From positions 1 through 7,241 of the forward strand of contig JAQGOW010000612.1 in NCBI GenBank assembly GCA_028293405.1: a stretch of 7,241 bases of DNA. The letters are read 5' to 3'. The notes beneath the pieces are model-generated. The model searched no databases and had not been told where the DNA came from. It saw only the letters and a list, made by a program, of their open reading frames with translations. Positions 1,873 through 7,241 of this stretch are shown here, in pieces; the first letter of the stretch is position 1, and each line of letters begins with the position of its first letter. The translations under genes were made by a program, and so were the position numbers. Source of the DNA: Verrucomicrobiales bacterium. GTDB taxonomy: Bacteria > Verrucomicrobiota > Verrucomicrobiia > Limisphaerales > Palsa-1400.

Positions 1873-1902
1873 GGTCTTAGTAAATGTGGCTTTACTGTGA
1901 CC
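1873..1902. terminator. Hairpin between convergent genes (possible bidirectional terminator)
   Basis: AGTAAA (1879-1884) pairs with TTTACT (1891-1896) across a 6-nt loop. An outer GGTC (1873-1876) pairs with GACC (1899-1902) beyond a 2x2 internal loop. The SymE-like stop codon (1892-1894, minus strand) lies inside the stem. No U-tract follows on either strand, so intrinsic termination would be weak. Confidence 0.35.
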
Positions 1903-2161
1903 GGAGTTCAATCACTCCCGGAGCAATGGACTTCACCAAAACATGAGAACCAGGCTTGAAACCAGCACGTTCAAGCCAATGCCCAGTCAGACGAATCTTC
2001 GGTTTGACCTGCTTTTTCCAGAAATCACCAGTTTGTTCGACTTTTAGTTTTCGTACAGCAGGATTTATTCTTGTTTCGGTGTTTATGTGACAACACAGGC
2101 TGACATTCTGGAATGTAGCGTGCACACCGAATGTTTTTTCTCGACACTCACAGTAGCGCAA
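1892..2161 (-). CDS. SymE-like protein (type I toxin-family, AbrB-like fold)
   Basis: The C-terminal half is a clear SymE-family domain: RKLKV (37-41), then KPKIRLTGHWLERAGFKPG (53-71) and HVLVKSIAPGVIELR (73-87). In Escherichia coli SymE is an SOS-induced protein controlled by the antisense RNA SymR and related in fold to AbrB antitoxins. Later work describes such proteins as binding nucleic acid. The start is unclear: the longest frame begins with TTG at 2161, an in-frame GTG lies at residue 13, and no convincing ribosome binding site is seen. The cysteine-rich first 35 residues (YCECREK, SLCCH) do not resemble the family and may be untranslated. A SymR-like antisense RNA over the 5' end would fit the family, but I see no convincing plus-strand promoter there. 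No LexA box of the CTGT-N8-ACAG type is present upstream. Confidence 0.75.
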   Translation of the reverse strand: MRYCECREKTFGVHATFQNVSLCCHINTETRINPAVRKLKVEQTGDFWKKQVKPKIRLTGHWLERAGFKPGSHVLVKSIAPGVIELRSQ

Positions 2162-2340: not shown

Positions 2341-2937
2341 ATGCGCATCGCTATTTCGACAGTATGGTTGCTCGCAGTATTAGCCTGCGGGTTGTTTTTG
2401 ATTTCTTTGGACAATAGCGCAGGGCCTCAGGCAATGGCCGGAATGGAGTTTCCAAAAGTCCAAGAGGTTCAACTGGATTCCCACCGCTGCACACTGCTGT
2501 TGTTTGCTCATCCCAAATGCCCCTGCACTCGCGCTACCATCGGCGAGTTAAACCGCCTCCTGACGCGTTGTACAACCAATGTGGCTGTTCATGTTTTCTT
2601 TCTGCGCCCGAGTACCGAGACTGAGGATTGGTCGCAAACAGATTTGTGGCGAAGCGCCGGGAGCATTCCCGGCGTGCAGGTGCACCTCGATACTGATGGC
2701 GCCATTGCTGCAACATTTGGCGCGAGCACGTCGGGCGACGCCGTTCTCTACAGTTCGCATGGGAAATTGCTTTTTCATGGCGGGATCACCGCTGGACGCG
2801 GTCACGAGGGAGATAACCCGGGCGCCAGCGCCATCGTCGCGTTCGCCACTGGCACGACGGCCACTTTCAATCAAACGCCGGCCTATGGATGCCAACTTCA
2901 AAAGCAATGCAACGTAGCCCAGGAGACAACGCAATGA
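2341..2937 (+). CDS. RedB-like membrane-anchored thioredoxin-fold protein (CPC motif)
   Basis: The 198-residue product from ATG 2341 has an N-terminal hydrophobic helix (about 7-23, WLLAVLACGLFLISL) with little charge before it, indicating a signal anchor or uncleaved export signal and an extracytoplasmic C-terminal domain. The core starts with TLLLFAHPKCPC (51-62). C60-P61-C62 replaces the usual CxxC at the helix start, as in RedB-type proteins. The family pattern continues with TDLWRSAGSIPGV (100-112), FGASTSGDAVLY (126-137), GGITAGRGHEGDN (147-159) and TPAYGC (179-184). This order matches RedB proteins of Planctomycetes and Verrucomicrobia as I remember them. The biochemical role is not established; thiol redox chemistry or metal handling is likely from the two Cys. 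Earlier in-frame GTG codons at 2326 and 2338 are possible, but the ATG gives the most natural signal. Its stop overlaps the kinase start (ATGA), so the two are co-translated. Confidence 0.82.
   Translation: MRIAISTVWLLAVLACGLFLISLDNSAGPQAMAGMEFPKVQEVQLDSHRCTLLLFAHPKCPCTRATIGELNRLLTRCTTNVAVHVFFLRPSTETEDWSQTDLWRSAGSIPGVQVHLDTDGAIAATFGASTSGDAVLYSSHGKLLFHGGITAGRGHEGDNPGASAIVAFATGTTATFNQTPAYGCQLQKQCNVAQETTQ
2921..2937 (+). promoter_or_regulatory. Strong ribosome binding site and ATGA overlap fixing the kinase start
   Basis: AGGAG (2921-2925) lies 8 nt before the ATG at 2934, whose last two bases plus the next A form the TGA of the upstream gene. This decides the kinase start over the in-frame ATG at 2889, which would add 15 residues encoded inside the upstream gene. 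Confidence 0.85.
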
Positions 2938-5228
2938 CCCATACAACAACACCAACAACAGACGTTAGCCTACGCGCACACGAACTGTTCAAAGAACAGC
3001 AACTCAACATCACGAAACACACCGACATTGTGTTTGCACGGTTGATGATCTTTCAGTGGCTGGCCGGCATCGCCGCGGCTTTGATGATATCGCCACACAC
3101 CTGGACCGGCACCGAAAGTCACGTCCACATCCATGTCTGGGCAGCGGTGTTGCTGGGCGGTTTGATCACGAGCGTGCCCGTGGCGATGGCGTTTCTGTAC
3201 CCCGGCAGAGTGATCACACGGCATACGATCGCGATCGGCCAGATGTTGACCTCCGCGTTGTTGATTCATTTGACCGGCGGCCGCATCGAAACGCACTTTC
3301 ACGTCTTCGGCTCACTCGCCATCCTGGCATTTTACCGCGATTGGCGCGTACTGGTTTCGGCCTCGGCCATTGTTTTCGTCGACCATTTGGCTCGTGGATT
3401 TTTATGGCCCCAATCCGTTTACGGTGTCATGAGCGCGCCGATTTGGCGTTCGTTCGAGCACGCGGGCTGGGTTGTGTTTGAAGTGGTTTTTCTCATCATT
3501 TCCATCCGCAAAAGTTTAGTTGAAATGTTAAACGTCGCGGAGCGGCAGGCGCGGTTGGAAGCGTTGAACGAGACGATCGAAAAAACGGTGGCCGAGCGCA
3601 CCGCTGAGTTGCGACGAGAAATTGCCGAACGTCGTGAAGCTGAAGAGCAATTGAAAAAGAGCCAGTCGCAATTGGCACAGGCGCAACAAATCGCGCACAT
3701 CGGCAGTTGGGAATGGGACATTTGCGCGGACAAAGTTTGTTGGTCGGACGAAACGGCGCGCCTGTATGGATTCGCTCCGGAAGATGCCGGCATGAACATG
3801 GAAGCATGTCTGAAACGCCTCCATCCCGATGACATTCTAAAAGTGCGTGAAGCTTTGCAGCAAGCCGCCCAGACCGGCAAGCCTTACGAATGCGATCATC
3901 GGGTCATGTTGCCGGACACAACCGAGCGAGTTATGCAGGGCCGTGGCGAGGTGACAGTGGATAGCAACGGCATAGCGACGAAAATTCTCGGGACCGCTCA
4001 GGACATTACGGTGACGCGCCGCAATGAATTGGCATTGCGCCGCAGCGAAGAGCAATTGAGGCAATCACAAAAAATGGAAGCAGTCGGAAGATTGGCCGGT
4101 GGCGTCGCCCACGACTTTAACAATTTGCTGACCGTCATCACCGGGTATTGCGCGTTGTTGATGCGCCGTCTGCCGCATGTCGATCCTATTCGCCCGCACG
4201 CCGAACAAATCCAGCGCGCCGCGGAACGTGCCGCTTCGTTGACACGCCAACTGCTGGCCTTCAGCCGCAAACAAGTGTTGCAACCGCGCACGTTGGACCT
4301 TGCTGAGATCGTGCATGGCATGGAAAAAATGCTCCACCGTCTCATCGGTGAGGACATCGAGTTGCGCACTATTAGCGATCCGGGCGCCGCCAAAGTTCAG
4401 GCCGACCCTGGCCAGATTGAACAGGTGATTTTGAATATGGCGGTGAATGCGCGCGACGCCATGCCACAGGGAGGCAAACTGACGATCCGCATTTCGAACG
4501 TGATTTTTGATCAAAAAACCGTCATCCGAAATCGTGGCCTCGACGCTGGTGCGTACGTGATGATGGCTATCAGCGACAGTGGAGTGGGTATGACTCCGGA
4601 AGTGCGAGCGCACTTGTTCGAACCGTTCTTCACCACCAAAGGGGTTGGCAAAGGCACCGGTCTTGGGCTCGCCACCTGCTACGGAATCATTAGCCAAAGC
4701 GGCGGCGACGTCCGCGTCTACAGCGAGCCGGGCTCTGGCACGACCTTCAAGATTTATTTGCCTGCCATTCAAAGCAACGTCTTGCCCGCACCGATGATCG
4801 ACGAAACCGACGCTCTTCCGGGCGGCACTGAAACCATTTTGATTGTCGAAGATGACGAAGCCGTACGAACGCTCGCGTCCGCTGTGCTTGGCGAGTGCGG
4901 TTACAGCATTGAACTCGCGCGCGATGGCGCAGAAGCCCTTGCTGTCATTGAAAGTGGCCGGCGCTTCGACATGATTCTCACCGACGTCATCATGCCGAAA
5001 GTCAGTGGTCGTCAGCTTTACGATCGCGCGAAGGAAAAGCTGCAGACCACCAAAGTTCTGTTCATGTCCGGTTACACCGATGATGCACTCGCCAATCGCG
5101 GCGTTCTCGAACAAGGATTCAACTTCCTGGAAAAGCCCTTTTCGCCAACGGGTTTGGCCAACAAGGTGCGCAAGGTTCTGGACGGAATTGAGTCTGACAC
5201 CTCCAAAGACATCGCCTTGACTGCGTAG
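2934..5228 (+). CDS. Membrane hybrid sensor histidine kinase / response regulator
   Basis: The 764-residue protein senses a signal at the membrane and phosphorylates itself and its own receiver. An N-terminal region of about five membrane helices (roughly 33-53, 68-88, 96-114, 124-155 and 178-192) contains ESHVHIHVW and GGRIETHFHVFGSLA (115-129). These membrane-proximal histidines could bind a metal or haem (inference); a similar GG-x-IE-x-HF block occurs in some chemotaxis receptors. A charged coiled coil (200-250) leads to a PAS domain (about 252-362, with GSWEWD and GTAQDIT). HisKA follows with phosphoacceptor His393 in GGVAHDFNN. The HATPase has N-box N501/N505, G1 DSGVGM (548-553), F-box FEPFF (562-566) and G2 GKGTGLGLA (572-580). 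The receiver (about 634-750) has acidic D640/D641, phosphoacceptor D684 in TDVIMP, S712 and K734 in LEKPF. All key residues are present, so it should be active. There is no DNA-binding output domain, so the partner acts elsewhere or the receiver only modulates. Coupling to the RedB-like gene suggests redox or metal sensing. Confidence 0.95.
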   Translation: MTHTTTPTTDVSLRAHELFKEQQLNITKHTDIVFARLMIFQWLAGIAAALMISPHTWTGTESHVHIHVWAAVLLGGLITSVPVAMAFLYPGRVITRHTIAIGQMLTSALLIHLTGGRIETHFHVFGSLAILAFYRDWRVLVSASAIVFVDHLARGFLWPQSVYGVMSAPIWRSFEHAGWVVFEVVFLIISIRKSLVEMLNVAERQARLEALNETIEKTVAERTAELRREIAERREAEEQLKKSQSQLAQAQQIAHIGSWEWDICADKVCWSDETARLYGFAPEDAGMNMEACLKRLHPDDILKVREALQQAAQTGKPYECDHRVMLPDTTERVMQGRGEVTVDSNGIATKILGTAQDITVTRRNELALRRSEEQLRQSQKMEAVGRLAGGVAHDFNNLLTVITGYCALLMRRLPHVDPIRPHAEQIQRAAERAASLTRQLLAFSRKQVLQPRTLDLAEIVHGMEKMLHRLIGEDIELRTISDPGAAKVQADPGQIEQVILNMAVNARDAMPQGGKLTIRISNVIFDQKTVIRNRGLDAGAYVMMAISDSGVGMTPEVRAHLFEPFFTTKGVGKGTGLGLATCYGIISQSGGDVRVYSEPGSGTTFKIYLPAIQSNVLPAPMIDETDALPGGTETILIVEDDEAVRTLASAVLGECGYSIELARDGAEALAVIESGRRFDMILTDVIMPKVSGRQLYDRAKEKLQTTKVLFMSGYTDDALANRGVLEQGFNFLEKPFSPTGLANKVRKVLDGIESDTSKDIALTA

Positions 5229-5491
5229 TCGCAGACTTTCGGGCCGGTCAGCGAAGAAGAAGGGCTGGTCAAAGGCGGGTCCGTGTCACAGCACGATTGA
5301 TCACGACTTCAAGGTTCTGAGCTGGATAGAGTTTTGAAAAGCGCGAGCCCATCCATTTCAGCAATGACGAGTTTTCGTGATGCTAAGTTGGTCTGTTTTG
5401 ATGCTGGCGTCGAGCCGCTTTACTGATTGGATGGTGCGCTGATCGGACGTGTAGATCGGGACAGAAACTCCATCCTCATCTCAACGGCTCG

Positions 5492-5658
5492 GTCAGCCTG
5501 ACGGGTGCCTGGCTTCAGGCGGTTCGCGGCAGCGAACATCAAAACAATTTGTTCTAAATCTCACGGGTTCCCGCCAACCTGACGGGTGCCTGCCGTCAGC
5601 CTGACGGGTAAACTCAGTCGCAAACGATTGACGATCAACATTCTTGACGGCCTGACGG
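5492..5658. repeat. CTGACGG-family dispersed repeats with inverted copies
   Basis: GTCAGCCTGACGGGT occurs at 5492-5506 and 5595-5609, identical over 15 bp. CCTGACGGGTGCCTG occurs at 5497-5511 and 5578-5592. CCTGACGG recurs at 5651-5658. Within this, CTGACGG (5579-5585), CCGTCAG (5593-5599) and CTGACGG (5601-5607) can form two mutually exclusive 7-bp stems. Confidence 0.65.
5522..5537. repeat. Small perfect hairpin GTTCGC-GGCA-GCGAAC
   Basis: A 6-bp perfect stem with a 4-nt loop lies between two copies of the CTGACGG repeat. No U-tract follows directly, so I do not call it a terminator. Confidence 0.4.
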
Positions 5659-5663
5659 CTCTA

Positions 5664-5680
5664 ACCCCCCGGTGGGGGGT
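5664..5680. repeat. G/C-only inverted repeat ACCCCCC-GGT-GGGGGGT
   Basis: A 7-bp perfect stem with a 3-nt loop, followed by GGGG (5681-5684). It is purely C6/G6 and very stable if extruded or transcribed. Confidence 0.45.
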
Positions 5681-5735
5681 GGGGTCGTTCCGGTCCGCAG
5701 TTATTTTCTTCAGTCCACTGCTTGGGACGGCACCG

Positions 5736-5755
5736 ACCCGTCCCATGGGACGGGT
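5736..5755. repeat. 20-bp perfect palindrome
   Basis: ACCCGTCCCATGGGACGGGT is its own reverse complement. Its GGGACGG arm also occurs at 5724-5730 and 5790-5796, so the surroundings carry further half-sites. This suits a dimeric regulator site or a cruciform; function unknown. Confidence 0.6.
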
Positions 5756-5789
5756 GAAAACGCTAAAACCACCAATGTTTACGGGCCTT

Positions 5790-5832
5790 GGGACGGGGTG
5801 ACGGGTCCAGAGGAGGGTACGGGGGTGGGGGG
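5790..5832 (+). other. Potential G-quadruplex run
   Basis: Six G-runs of at least three lie within 43 nt: 5790-5792, 5795-5798, 5803-5805, 5815-5817, 5821-5825 and 5827-5832, with spacers of 2, 4, 9, 3 and 1 nt. Any four consecutive runs could form a quadruplex on the plus strand, the one with the 9-nt loop being least favoured. Confidence 0.45.
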
Positions 5833-5888
5833 TGCGGCGACTTGCCTGCACAATTCAAAATAGATGGACCGCTCAAAAAGTTGCAGCC

Positions 5889-5913
5889 CCTTTGCGCCTT
5901 CGCGCCCTTCGCG
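5889..5913. repeat. CCTTTGCG / CCTTCGCG short tandem repeat
   Basis: CCTTTGCG, CCTTCGCG and CCCTTCGCG follow one another directly. Runs of this word type are common intergenic repeats in many bacterial genomes and often produce false open frames. No local function is evident. Confidence 0.5.
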
Positions 5914-6037
5914 AGACATGTGATTGAAGAATTTTTCAATTATTTTGGGGACTACCCCCGTAACTGTCCTACCCCCCTTGATAAAGTAGCGCCTATGAAT
6001 GTTACGAACAGTCTGGCCGCCCACACGTCCACCGCCA

Positions 6038-6066
6038 TTCCCAATGAAAACGAAGGGTTGTATAAC
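6038..6066 (+). promoter_or_regulatory. Candidate promoter upstream of array A
   Basis: TTCCCA (6038-6043, four of six to the -35) is followed by 17 nt and TATAAC (6061-6066, five of six to the -10). It overlaps an inverted repeat, GTTGTA (6057-6062) with TACAAC (6072-6077), that could be an operator. The predicted start is near 6073. Confidence 0.25.
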
Positions 6067-6103
6067 ATATGTACAACAAGGTCAGTTGGGCCGGATCGCT
6101 CGC

Positions 6104-6155
6104 GAAAAAATCGGAAAAAAGTACTCTTAAGTACTTTTAAGTACTCAGAAGTACT
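6104..6155 (+). repeat. Array A: AGTACT-N4, four units, exact 10-bp period
   Basis: After a GAAAAAATCGGAAAAA preamble, AGTACT occurs at 6120, 6130, 6140 and 6150, each 10 bp apart, with variable four-base spacers CTTA, TTTA and CAGA (the base run after the last is CTGG). The core is palindromic. Phasing at about one helical turn places all cores on one face of the DNA. Confidence 0.8.
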
Positions 6156-6163
6156 CTGGGACC

Positions 6164-6193
6164 GACTGAAATGCTGCTTTCGGCGGCTCAGTC
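6164..6193 (+). ncRNA. Bulged stem-loop directly after array A
   Basis: GACTGA (6164-6169) pairs with TCAGTC (6188-6193), and GCTGC (6173-6177) with GCGGC (6183-6187) through one G-U pair. A 3-nt bulge (AAT) separates the two helices and the loop is TTTCG. The eleven-pair stem is stronger than chance hairpins nearby. Whether it is transcribed is unknown. Confidence 0.35.
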
Positions 6194-6338
6194 TGTCTTT
6201 CATTACGGTTCACTTTCCAAAAAAACTTCGTTTTCGGTTCCTTTTGTTGACGCTGCCCTCATGAAAACTGCACCATTTCTGCCTTGTCCCGTGCCCAGTG
6301 CCAACTGTGCATCGTCGCGTGGCCCAAGGCCAATCGTT

Positions 6339-6368
6339 CCGCGAATTCCGCGTGCTCCGCGGTTTTTT
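6339..6368 (+). terminator. Candidate intrinsic terminator made from a CCGCG repeat
   Basis: CCGCG occurs at 6339, 6348 and 6357 (9-bp steps). CCGCG (6348-6352) pairs with CGCGG (6358-6362) across 5 nt and is followed at once by TTTTTT (6363-6368). The five-pair GC stem is short, so efficiency is uncertain. No protein gene lies immediately upstream, so it would end an untranslated RNA. Confidence 0.35.
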
Positions 6369-6384
6369 AAAAAAAAGGCAAAAA

Positions 6385-6425
6385 CATGACCAGGAATGAC
6401 CGGAAATGACCCAAAATGACTTTTG
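6385..6425 (+). repeat. Array B: ATGACC-N4, four units, exact 10-bp period
   Basis: ATGAC begins at 6386, 6396, 6406 and 6416; three copies are ATGACC and the last is ATGACT. Spacers vary (AGGA, GGAA, CAAA). It begins just after an A8 run and GGCAAAAAC. Confidence 0.8.
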
Positions 6426-6491
6426 CTCCATCAAATCGGCCCCGTTCGATCGCAAGACACCTAACCAAAGACACTGGAAAAAAATTATTTC

Positions 6492-6530
6492 AATGGCCTG
6501 GAGTGGCTTTTAGTGGCTTTCAATGGCTTT
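6492..6530 (+). repeat. Array C: ARTGGC-N4, four units, exact 10-bp period
   Basis: AATGGC, AGTGGC, AGTGGC and AATGGC start at 6492, 6502, 6512 and 6522. The spacers after the first three are CTGG, TTTT and TTTC. An A7 run (about 6478-6484) precedes the array, as in arrays A, B and E. Confidence 0.8.
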
Positions 6531-6596
6531 TGCCCGGTTTGGATATTTCCGAATCGCTCGATTGGAACATTGTTTCGGATTTCGGATTTGGGAAAC

Positions 6597-6673
6597 GGTC
6601 ACGTCTGGTCACGTCTGGTCACGTCTGGTCACGTCTGGTCACGTCTGGTCACGTTCGGTCATGTCTGGTCACA
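6597..6673 (+). repeat. Array D: GGTCACGTCT tandem repeat, 7.7 units
   Basis: Five identical GGTCACGTCT units (6597-6646) are followed by GGTCACGTTC, GGTCATGTCT and a partial GGTCACA. Read on the minus strand the core is GTGACC or ATGACC, the same RTGACC core as array B in the opposite orientation. Near-identity of the first five suggests recent expansion. Confidence 0.9.
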
Positions 6674-6694
6674 TAAATGAAAGGTGCTGCCGAT

Positions 6695-6735
6695 GAAAAA
6701 TCGAAAAAAAATACTTTTAAATACTCGGAAATACT
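6695..6735 (+). repeat. Array E: AATACT-N4, three units, exact 10-bp period
   Basis: A GAAAAATCG preamble and an A-run lead into AATACT at 6710, 6720 and 6730 with spacers TTTA and CGGA. Preamble, units and the following CTCCGGA align unit by unit with array A minus its first unit, so A and E are diverged copies of one element. Confidence 0.8.
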
Positions 6736-6835
6736 CCGGATCCCACCCAAACCCAAAAACGAGCCCCCCGGCGGGTATCGACAAACCGATTGGAGGAGGG
6801 CGAGTTTGTTTTGGACGCCGCGCTAACACGCAGGC

Positions 6836-7241
6836 ATGATAATAGAGAGGATGCCAACCAACGGCCAACCAGTGACGTTACCGGAGCAATTGCGCCTGCA
6901 ATTTGCGTCGGTGGAACGCAGGCTTTGGCGGGTCGAAACGGCGGTGGCGGTCTGTTCGGTCGTGGCGGCACTGGTGGTTTCGTGGTTGGCGTTGTTTGTT
7001 TCGGACCGGGTTTGGGCGACGCCGGTGTGGTTGCGTGCGACTCTTTTGGCCGCGGGTCTGGCAGCCAGTGCGATTGCGGTGCTGCGGTGGATGGATCGGT
7101 GGGTTTGGCATAAGCGCGACCAACGCGAGCTGGCAATGCTCGTTCAAAAGAAATACCGCAAACTCGGCGATCGGCTGTTGGGCATTGTCGAACTGGCCGG
7201 TGAACACGAGCACTCGGCTAATTTCTCCCCTGCCCTTTATC
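6836..7241 (+). CDS. Two-helix membrane protein of the DUF4175-like type, 3'-partial
   Basis: The frame is open from the ATG at 6836 to the window edge; a second in-frame ATG at 6851 (preceded by GAGAGG with no gap) is equally likely, and upstream the frame closes at TAA 6824-6826. Numbering from 6851, about 130 residues are visible: a short charged head (1-27), hydrophobic helix one (28-51, AVAVCSVVAALVVSWLALFV), helix two (60-80), then a basic patch (WHKRDQRE) and AMLVQKKYRKLGDRLLGIVE (95-114), with ANFSPALY at 123-130. The 'L-V-x-x-x-x-x-x-LGDRLL-x-x-VEL' block after two N-terminal helices is typical of large membrane proteins of Planctomycetes/Verrucomicrobia (DUF4175-like), often encoded beside MoxR ATPase and DUF58 genes. 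Function is unknown, and the neighbours that would support this lie outside the window. Array E ends 100 bp upstream of the first ATG. Confidence 0.8.
   Translation, partial: MIIERMPTNGQPVTLPEQLRLQFASVERRLWRVETAVAVCSVVAALVVSWLALFVSDRVWATPVWLRATLLAAGLAASAIAVLRWMDRWVWHKRDQRELAMLVQKKYRKLGDRLLGIVELAGEHEHSANFSPALY

Follow-up and report, generated by a model that had tools for sequence, protein, structure and literature searches.

What keeps five short repeat arrays on the same 10-bp step when their core words differ? The question is posed by a 633-bp region in the DNA of a Verrucomicrobiales bacterium. The window, meaning the whole 7,241-nt stretch that was analysed, is contig C105 of an assembly of 3.85 Mb in 684 contigs that is 67% complete (referred to as the own genome, G000). 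An apparently non-coding stretch of ~1.6 kb holds the arrays. It is bounded by the end, at 5228, of a gene for a hybrid sensor histidine kinase (PAS, HisKA, HATPase_c and receiver domains; 2889..5228, plus strand) and by an open frame that starts at 6836, has no Pfam match and runs off the window (6836..7240, plus strand). Both lie outside the arrays. A search for viral relatives of the kinase returned none. A small ORF elsewhere in the window (1892-2161, minus strand) matches the Pfam entry PF08845 (SymE-like, E 9.5e-8), a type I toxin-antitoxin family. The relatives used for comparison are mostly fragmentary assemblies, and ORF calls are mechanical throughout.

An earlier note on this DNA had listed five arrays with an exact 10-bp step and differing cores, and all five are present. 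The first (6119..6157) has four units of the palindromic core AGTACT, with spacers that differ between units, and can fold. It is followed on the plus strand by three full units of ATGACC plus one ATGACT (6386..6420), four units of ARTGGC, where R is A or G (6492..6531), 7.6 copies of the unit GGTCACGTCT (6597..6672) and three units of AATACT (6709..6736). The last of these resembles the AGTACT module with the identical core base altered in each unit, and its spacers are not kept. The reverse complement of the GGTCACGTCT array contains GTGACC, an array word also found on contigs C468 and C536. The left flanks agree with the claim that four of the five arrays start at or near an A-rich tract, the exception being the GGTCAC array. 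Two of the arrays, AGTACT and ATGACC, combine a nearly invariant core with near-random spacers. Of six window stretches that were folded, five are near their shuffles (z -2.1 to 1.9) and only the AGTACT array folds well (z -4.8 as single-strand DNA). Other short-period intergenic repeats occur in the window at 5888-5913 and 6573-6593 and at other loci, namely TTTGCG/CCTTCGCG (8-9 bp) and TTTCGGA (7 bp); the latter is matched in some relatives.

The shuffled-sequence comparison that had been proposed places the arrays far above chance, and the excess is specific for period 10. A 5-base core recurring at least three times at 10 bp is seen five times in region 6104-6736; 1000 dinucleotide-preserving shuffles average 0.003 and do not exceed 1. 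The other periods from 6 to 30 give none, except one each at 9, 20 and 30.

The longest ORF across the arrays (5788-6264, TTG start) is 158 aa long. In the paralogous copy on contig C590 this length is lost, the longest stop-to-stop frame across the array having 90 codons, and the stretch therefore looks non-coding. A 182-codon stop-to-stop frame spans the array on contig C523, which makes the coding test imperfect. Despite this long frame we reject a coding role, as the frames look mechanical and the 158-aa length is lost on C590.

The region is not alone. The 633-base stretch matches 16 places on 10 contigs of the own genome, at 69-92% identity besides the self match. The differing cores thus stand, and the uniqueness of the stretch as a whole does not, given the 15 further matches. 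Separate module searches, with the weakest counted match at E 0.02, place ARTACT on four contigs (C105, C590, C523 twice and C46), ATGACC on seven (C105, C590, C536, C468, C124, C46 and C123) and ARTGGC on nine (C105, C468, C523, C650, C70, C123, C536, C46 and C124). Contigs C105, C590 and C523 have largely one succession of words, with elements of the words CTGACGG and GGGACGG first. Core changes between copies tend to hit all units, as judged by eye. The core is AGTACT in C105, C590 and C46, and AATACT in all four units of the first C523 array, in which two of the four spacers are kept exactly and one base is lost (by eye). Similarly, in C590 and at the end of C523 a CTACC unit comes first, and RTGGC is then mostly replaced by RTGCC or RTACC. 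Several ARTGGC arrays close with an ATGCC unit; cores can therefore mix, which counts against the reading that we favour below.

Clusters of several cores recur, on C105, C523, C590, C46, C536, C32, C502 and C103. The C32 cluster has the words TTGTAGC, GGTAACC and GACCATTAG. At two loci, 10-bp arrays of TTGTAGC lie within an inverted repeat, TTGCTAC...GTAGCAA (L227 1372-1420 and L088 535-590). A conserved repeat of ~100 bp, GGGCTTCCCAAGGAGGTGTGCC...GCGATAGCAAGAGGTGT, is found beside array clusters on C468 (L009), C536 (L015) and C70 (L017); it resembles a structured RNA and has no Rfam match.

Period 10 is a habit of the own genome that is unevenly shared across the order. Forty contigs of G000 taken by number (235 kb unmasked, 14.2 kb non-coding) contain five period-10 arrays in their non-coding DNA, against 0.05 in shuffles. 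Their cores are TAAAGG, GGTAA, TTGCA and GACCATTAG, the last in two blocks. Other periods from 6 to 24 give at most two arrays each: two at 7, two at 8, none at 9 or 11-19, and a single one at 20, in overlap with a period-10 array. Slightly different cutting yields one array at period 6 as well. In the G004 sample there are four arrays at period 9 and two at 10, and periods 6 and 7 have one each; the G001 sample, from the same genus as the own genome, has one at 11 and one at 18. In 400 kb sampled from the single-contig genome G076, no arrays were found at periods 6-20.

Upstream of the five arrays, the window contains two elements with a fixed layout. The GTTTAC-type element (5719..5827, plus strand) has the backbone CCAATGTTTAC and carries the word TGGGACG(G) at 5723, 5746 and 5789 and GTGACGG at 5798. 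Its layout is 43 bp and then 8 bp, measured from ACG to ACG (43/8). A second 43/8 element on a different backbone (5579..5690, plus strand) carries CTGACGG/TTGACGG at 5579, 5601, 5644 and 5652. An extra CTGACGG lies at 5498, and this second element has copies on C590 and C523. A third 43/8 match in the window (TATACA, minus strand) looks like chance.

The GTTTAC-type element has about 25 copies in the own genome, 24 of them long matches and the other lying at a contig end. In 22 aligned copies the backbone is largely constant, and the word at all or most slots is TGGGACG, TGTAACG or TGTTACG. Twelve of the 22, those with the GGGACGG word, hold a palindrome, GACCCGTCCC/GGGACGGGTC, with CGTC inside the stem. 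The consensus fold over the 22 copies is weak (8 pairs, -3.8 kcal/mol), and Rfam at gathering score has no match in the window or in seven further loci, so that a known RNA family is rejected. Of the 22 copies, 13 have a 10-bp array called no more than 900 bp away, mostly downstream, and two of these share one array. The cores of these arrays include CCGCA, TTGCA, TCGCA, CGGCA, AACGG, TACAC, ATATCA, TCAAA, TGACG, TAAAGG and CTAATCAAGG, among others. In several of them the spacer CCTAA/GTTAA/GCTAA is common, the cores differ and the direction is that of the element (by eye).

A sequence-only model of the GTTTAC-type element has matches in 11 of 116 genomes, the own one included: 25 in G000, 11 in G001, 29 in G106, 17 in G002, 9 in G013 and 8 in G024, plus one to three weak matches in each of five further genomes. 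The relatives that an element scan of contigs returned are Verrucomicrobia MAGs (LS_FP_2_bin.140, Centralia_MAG_180, Pedosphaera sp. RYN_620 and Tobar12.5m-G45). The words in these genomes include TGTCACG, which fills every one of the five slots in a G106 copy, TTTACGG in G024 and GTTACGG in G005. In the eight G002 loci that were fetched, elements mix CTT, CTA and CTG before ACG, which counts against the favoured reading.

One layout is kept with different words. The 43/8 layout (42-44/8) is seen with TGGGACG, TGTAACG, CTGACGG, TGTCACG, TTTACGG, TGTGACG and GTTACG. A word-free scan, in which a 6-base word of any sequence has to come back at 36-49 bp and once more 7-12 bp on, returns 43/8 as the commonest layout in unselected G000 contigs (five, with any other layout at most two). 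The same scan finds 43/8 in fetched G001 and G013 loci and 42-43/8 in G106 and RYN_620, all loci besides the numbered contigs having been picked by the element. Samples of G076 and G004 contain no 43/8 layout. In G004, a related-looking AATGAC element has a 40/8 layout on three contigs (L102, L107 and L116).

Within an element, the slots agree. The same variable pair occupies all three anchored slots in 46 of 54 elements, against a mean of 25.9 and a maximum of 37 in 5000 permutations within genomes; 63 loci were given, nine were dropped as ACG or the anchor was missing, and the eight G002 loci were left out. The remaining eight elements have mixed words and count against the favoured reading. 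An exact-pattern contig scan with two slots left free gives agreement in 15 of 15 stretches from four MAGs (variable pair TA in 11, GG in three and TG in one). Between zero and six extra words precede the first anchored word, at steps of mostly 9-12 bp or of two to three turns. These upstream words keep helical phase, with R = 0.80 at 10.7 bp over 43 distances in 17 distinct position sets (four of 62 loci had no anchor); jittering the steps by up to 5 bp does not reach this value in any of 2000 controls. Both tests use related copies, which inflates them, and the GG and TA subfamilies make up most rows. Since the steps vary and the phase is constant, the data favour a reading along one face of the helix over duplication of one unit. 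The 8-bp distance of the last word pair is less than a full turn and speaks against it.

Our preferred explanation, held tentatively and a little short of an even call, is that the arrays and the 43/8 elements are homotypic strips of same-face binding sites for putative oligomerising DNA-binding proteins. Such a protein would assemble along one DNA face on the identical sites of a strip. Specificity would differ from one word class to the next, and as it shifted by co-evolution, the slots of an element would change in step. On this reading, shifts in protein specificity would account both for the agreement of words within a strip and for the change of word from strip to strip. The strips occur between convergent and divergent genes alike, and for that reason they may act on the DNA itself, in nucleoid organisation, segregation or anchoring, and not as promoter operators. 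What is inferred here is the binding itself, the difference in specificity between word classes and the action on DNA.

If the words are protein sites, they are natural experiments in which specificity was switched repeatedly on a fixed architecture, within a genome and across the order. The co-evolution of a DNA-binding protein with its repeated sites would be directly readable, and the strips would suggest that the lineage has a chromosome-organising or partitioning system not described before. In the open-licence literature, the titles and abstract openings among the matches listed describe no such elements in Verrucomicrobia. One extension, speculative and on balance unlikely, takes the strips as a genome-wide address system. 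One layout (words in phase, a gap of 43 bp and a final pair separated by 8 bp) would be conserved, lineages would insert different words, and each word would be read by its own member of a diversifying family of putative filament-forming DNA-binding proteins. With equally limited probability, many orthogonal centromere-like or nucleoid-loading specificities would then operate next to each other in one genome.

Neutral short-period minisatellites are an unlikely explanation. Slippage would start from any 10-bp seed, the units would drift, and segments would be copied around the genome. Some arrays look like this. The GTGACCAGTC array on C468 (L009 6416-6541, 12.6 copies) and the CTAATCAAGG array on C511 (L237 1616-1694, 7.9 copies) are near-perfect and likely to be recent expansions, and along C13 and C599 the words drift unit by unit, as expected from slippage. 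The cores are also mostly restricted to the own genome. Three RTGACC units at a 10-bp step occur in four of 245 genomes including the own one, which leaves three outside it against two of 245 for the reversed control. For ARTGGC, five of 245 genomes include the own one, leaving four against eight of 245 for the reversed control, which equals CGGTRA. Neither array is found in G001-G005. When the entire 633-bp region was searched as DNA against 97 genomes, with no more than six candidates scored in each, seven besides the own one gave short weak matches. Conservation of the window cores in relatives is not supported, being no better outside the own genome than the reversed control. The eight genomes with three CGGTRA units at a 10-bp step are G001, G010, G013, G072, G164, G190, G197 and G225, so that in this order CGGTRA, too, may be an array word.

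Other features are harder to obtain by slippage. The cores of the AGTACT and ATGACC arrays are invariant next to near-random spacers, the steps of 9-12 bp in GTTTAC-type elements hold helical phase, the 43/8 layout is constant across words, and the units of homologous arrays mostly change core alike (AGTACT to AATACT in four C523 units; by eye). In 37 indel-free arrays, the invariant run of columns is 4.35, against 3.33 in mismatch-shuffled arrays (none of 2000 reach the observed value), a test that mixes selected and unselected loci and whose value would also be raised by duplication of mutated units. The earlier interpretation is borne out in part: a period is shared by differing cores, and the phase kept in GTTTAC-type elements favours contacts on one DNA face over simple slippage. 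If the arrays are neutral, slippage must strongly prefer one helical turn, which would itself need explanation.

It is also conceivable, and rather unlikely, that the elements are non-autonomous mobile repeats, with words at which a trans-acting transposase or recombinase would work and with word classes that follow the specificity of the enzyme. The 25-29 dispersed copies in some genomes and the patchy distribution in 11 of 116 would fit, as would eight RYN_620 copies with fairly sharp ends and mostly unrelated flanks (by eye). In these eight copies, terminal inverted repeats and clear target duplications were not seen by eye. Among the G000 copies listed, identity with the window copy is 74-95%, and none is a fresh identical one. 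In G000 as in G001, two species of one genus, a copy stands before the same topoisomerase gene (protein identity 87%, 133 residues); from this orthologous position, it was probably inherited in place, which also counts in favour of the preferred reading. The words at this site differ by species, TGTAACG five times in one and a mix of TGTTACG and TGTAACG in the other, which counts against the same-face binding strips that we prefer.

Cis-regulatory operators of ordinary transcription factors, such as stacked response regulators or ECF-type control, are very unlikely. OmpR-type sites are usually built as direct repeats spaced 10-11 bp, which would fit, and a TATA-like run (TATATAT, TATAAT) follows soon after the last word in several copies of G002 (L314-L321) and G106 (L302-L313), as seen by eye. 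Other observations speak against operators. Among 22 copies no gene orientation is preferred: eight lie between tandem, six between convergent, six between divergent and two between opposite-tandem genes, a crude count in which two copies share one gap and the mechanical ORFs of at least 100 aa are surely wrong in some cases. Pfam was run on 30 of 68 flanking ORFs (19 of 21 loci): 25 match unrelated housekeeping, membrane and other families, and five match none. These 30 neighbours have no common function, and the proposed link to one gene family is not borne out; ParM and ParR are absent among them. A StbA_N search returned no match in eight genomes and likewise none in 14 control genomes. 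Sigma-70-like sites in window 5200-7241 occur at the shuffle rate. The words are unlikely to have one stacked response regulator each, because six OmpR/PhoB-type DNA-binding domains (Trans_reg_C) were found in the own genome (67% complete) for more than 15 words, an excess of words that also tells against the preferred reading.

Two further ideas were dismissed: arrays of stops in three frames (10 mod 3 = 1) fail as the AATGGCCTGG and GGGACGG words have no stop on either strand and, like Rho-type sites considered by reading, do not require word agreement, and deamination of methylated GTAC explains AGTACT to AATACT in all units and not the G-to-C or GG-to-TA switches.

How do the strips compare with known systems? 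Like OmpR/PhoB operators, they resemble direct half-sites at 10-11 bp. Unlike them, they show no particular placement at promoters, as judged by mechanical ORFs, and their words outnumber the six domains found.

REP elements, with GTAG repeats reported for the verrucomicrobium O. terrae (PMC3733652), are likewise short, intergenic and multi-copy, with many families. REPs, tagged with GTAG or CGTC, are short stem-loops with the tag at one end, whereas direct repeats dominate here. The palindromic exceptions are the AGTACT array and the GGGACGG-word copies with GACCCGTCCC/GGGACGGGTC; a palindrome of 20-40 bp with an unpaired GTAG/CGTC end tag is not found in our elements.

STRR repeats have been named for filamentous cyanobacteria (PMC2670836, PMC5088731). 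Here, too, short tandem repeats stand in intergenic DNA, at a period of 10. Cyanobacterial STRRs comprise several families and have a unit of 7 bp, in contrast to this period. We know of no STRR with a fixed 43/8 layout or with word switching.

The parC sites of ParMRC plasmids are described as repeats at about one helical turn whose sequence differs between families, and ParR proteins of C. perfringens as not binding non-cognate parC (PMC9426499). The likeness covers direct repeats at about one turn and a word that varies by family (11 bp in R1, 10 bp in pB171, and the C. perfringens families). Direct repeats of one word within a site, at about one turn, are a mark of parC and are also found here, with mixed words in 8 of 54 elements. 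The setting differs. parC usually lies upstream of parM, whereas our elements are dispersed between unrelated genes, with up to 25-29 in a genome, and several words stand side by side, unlike in parC. We do not claim membership in the parC class; as an analogy, plasmid parC would be the nearest working parallel.
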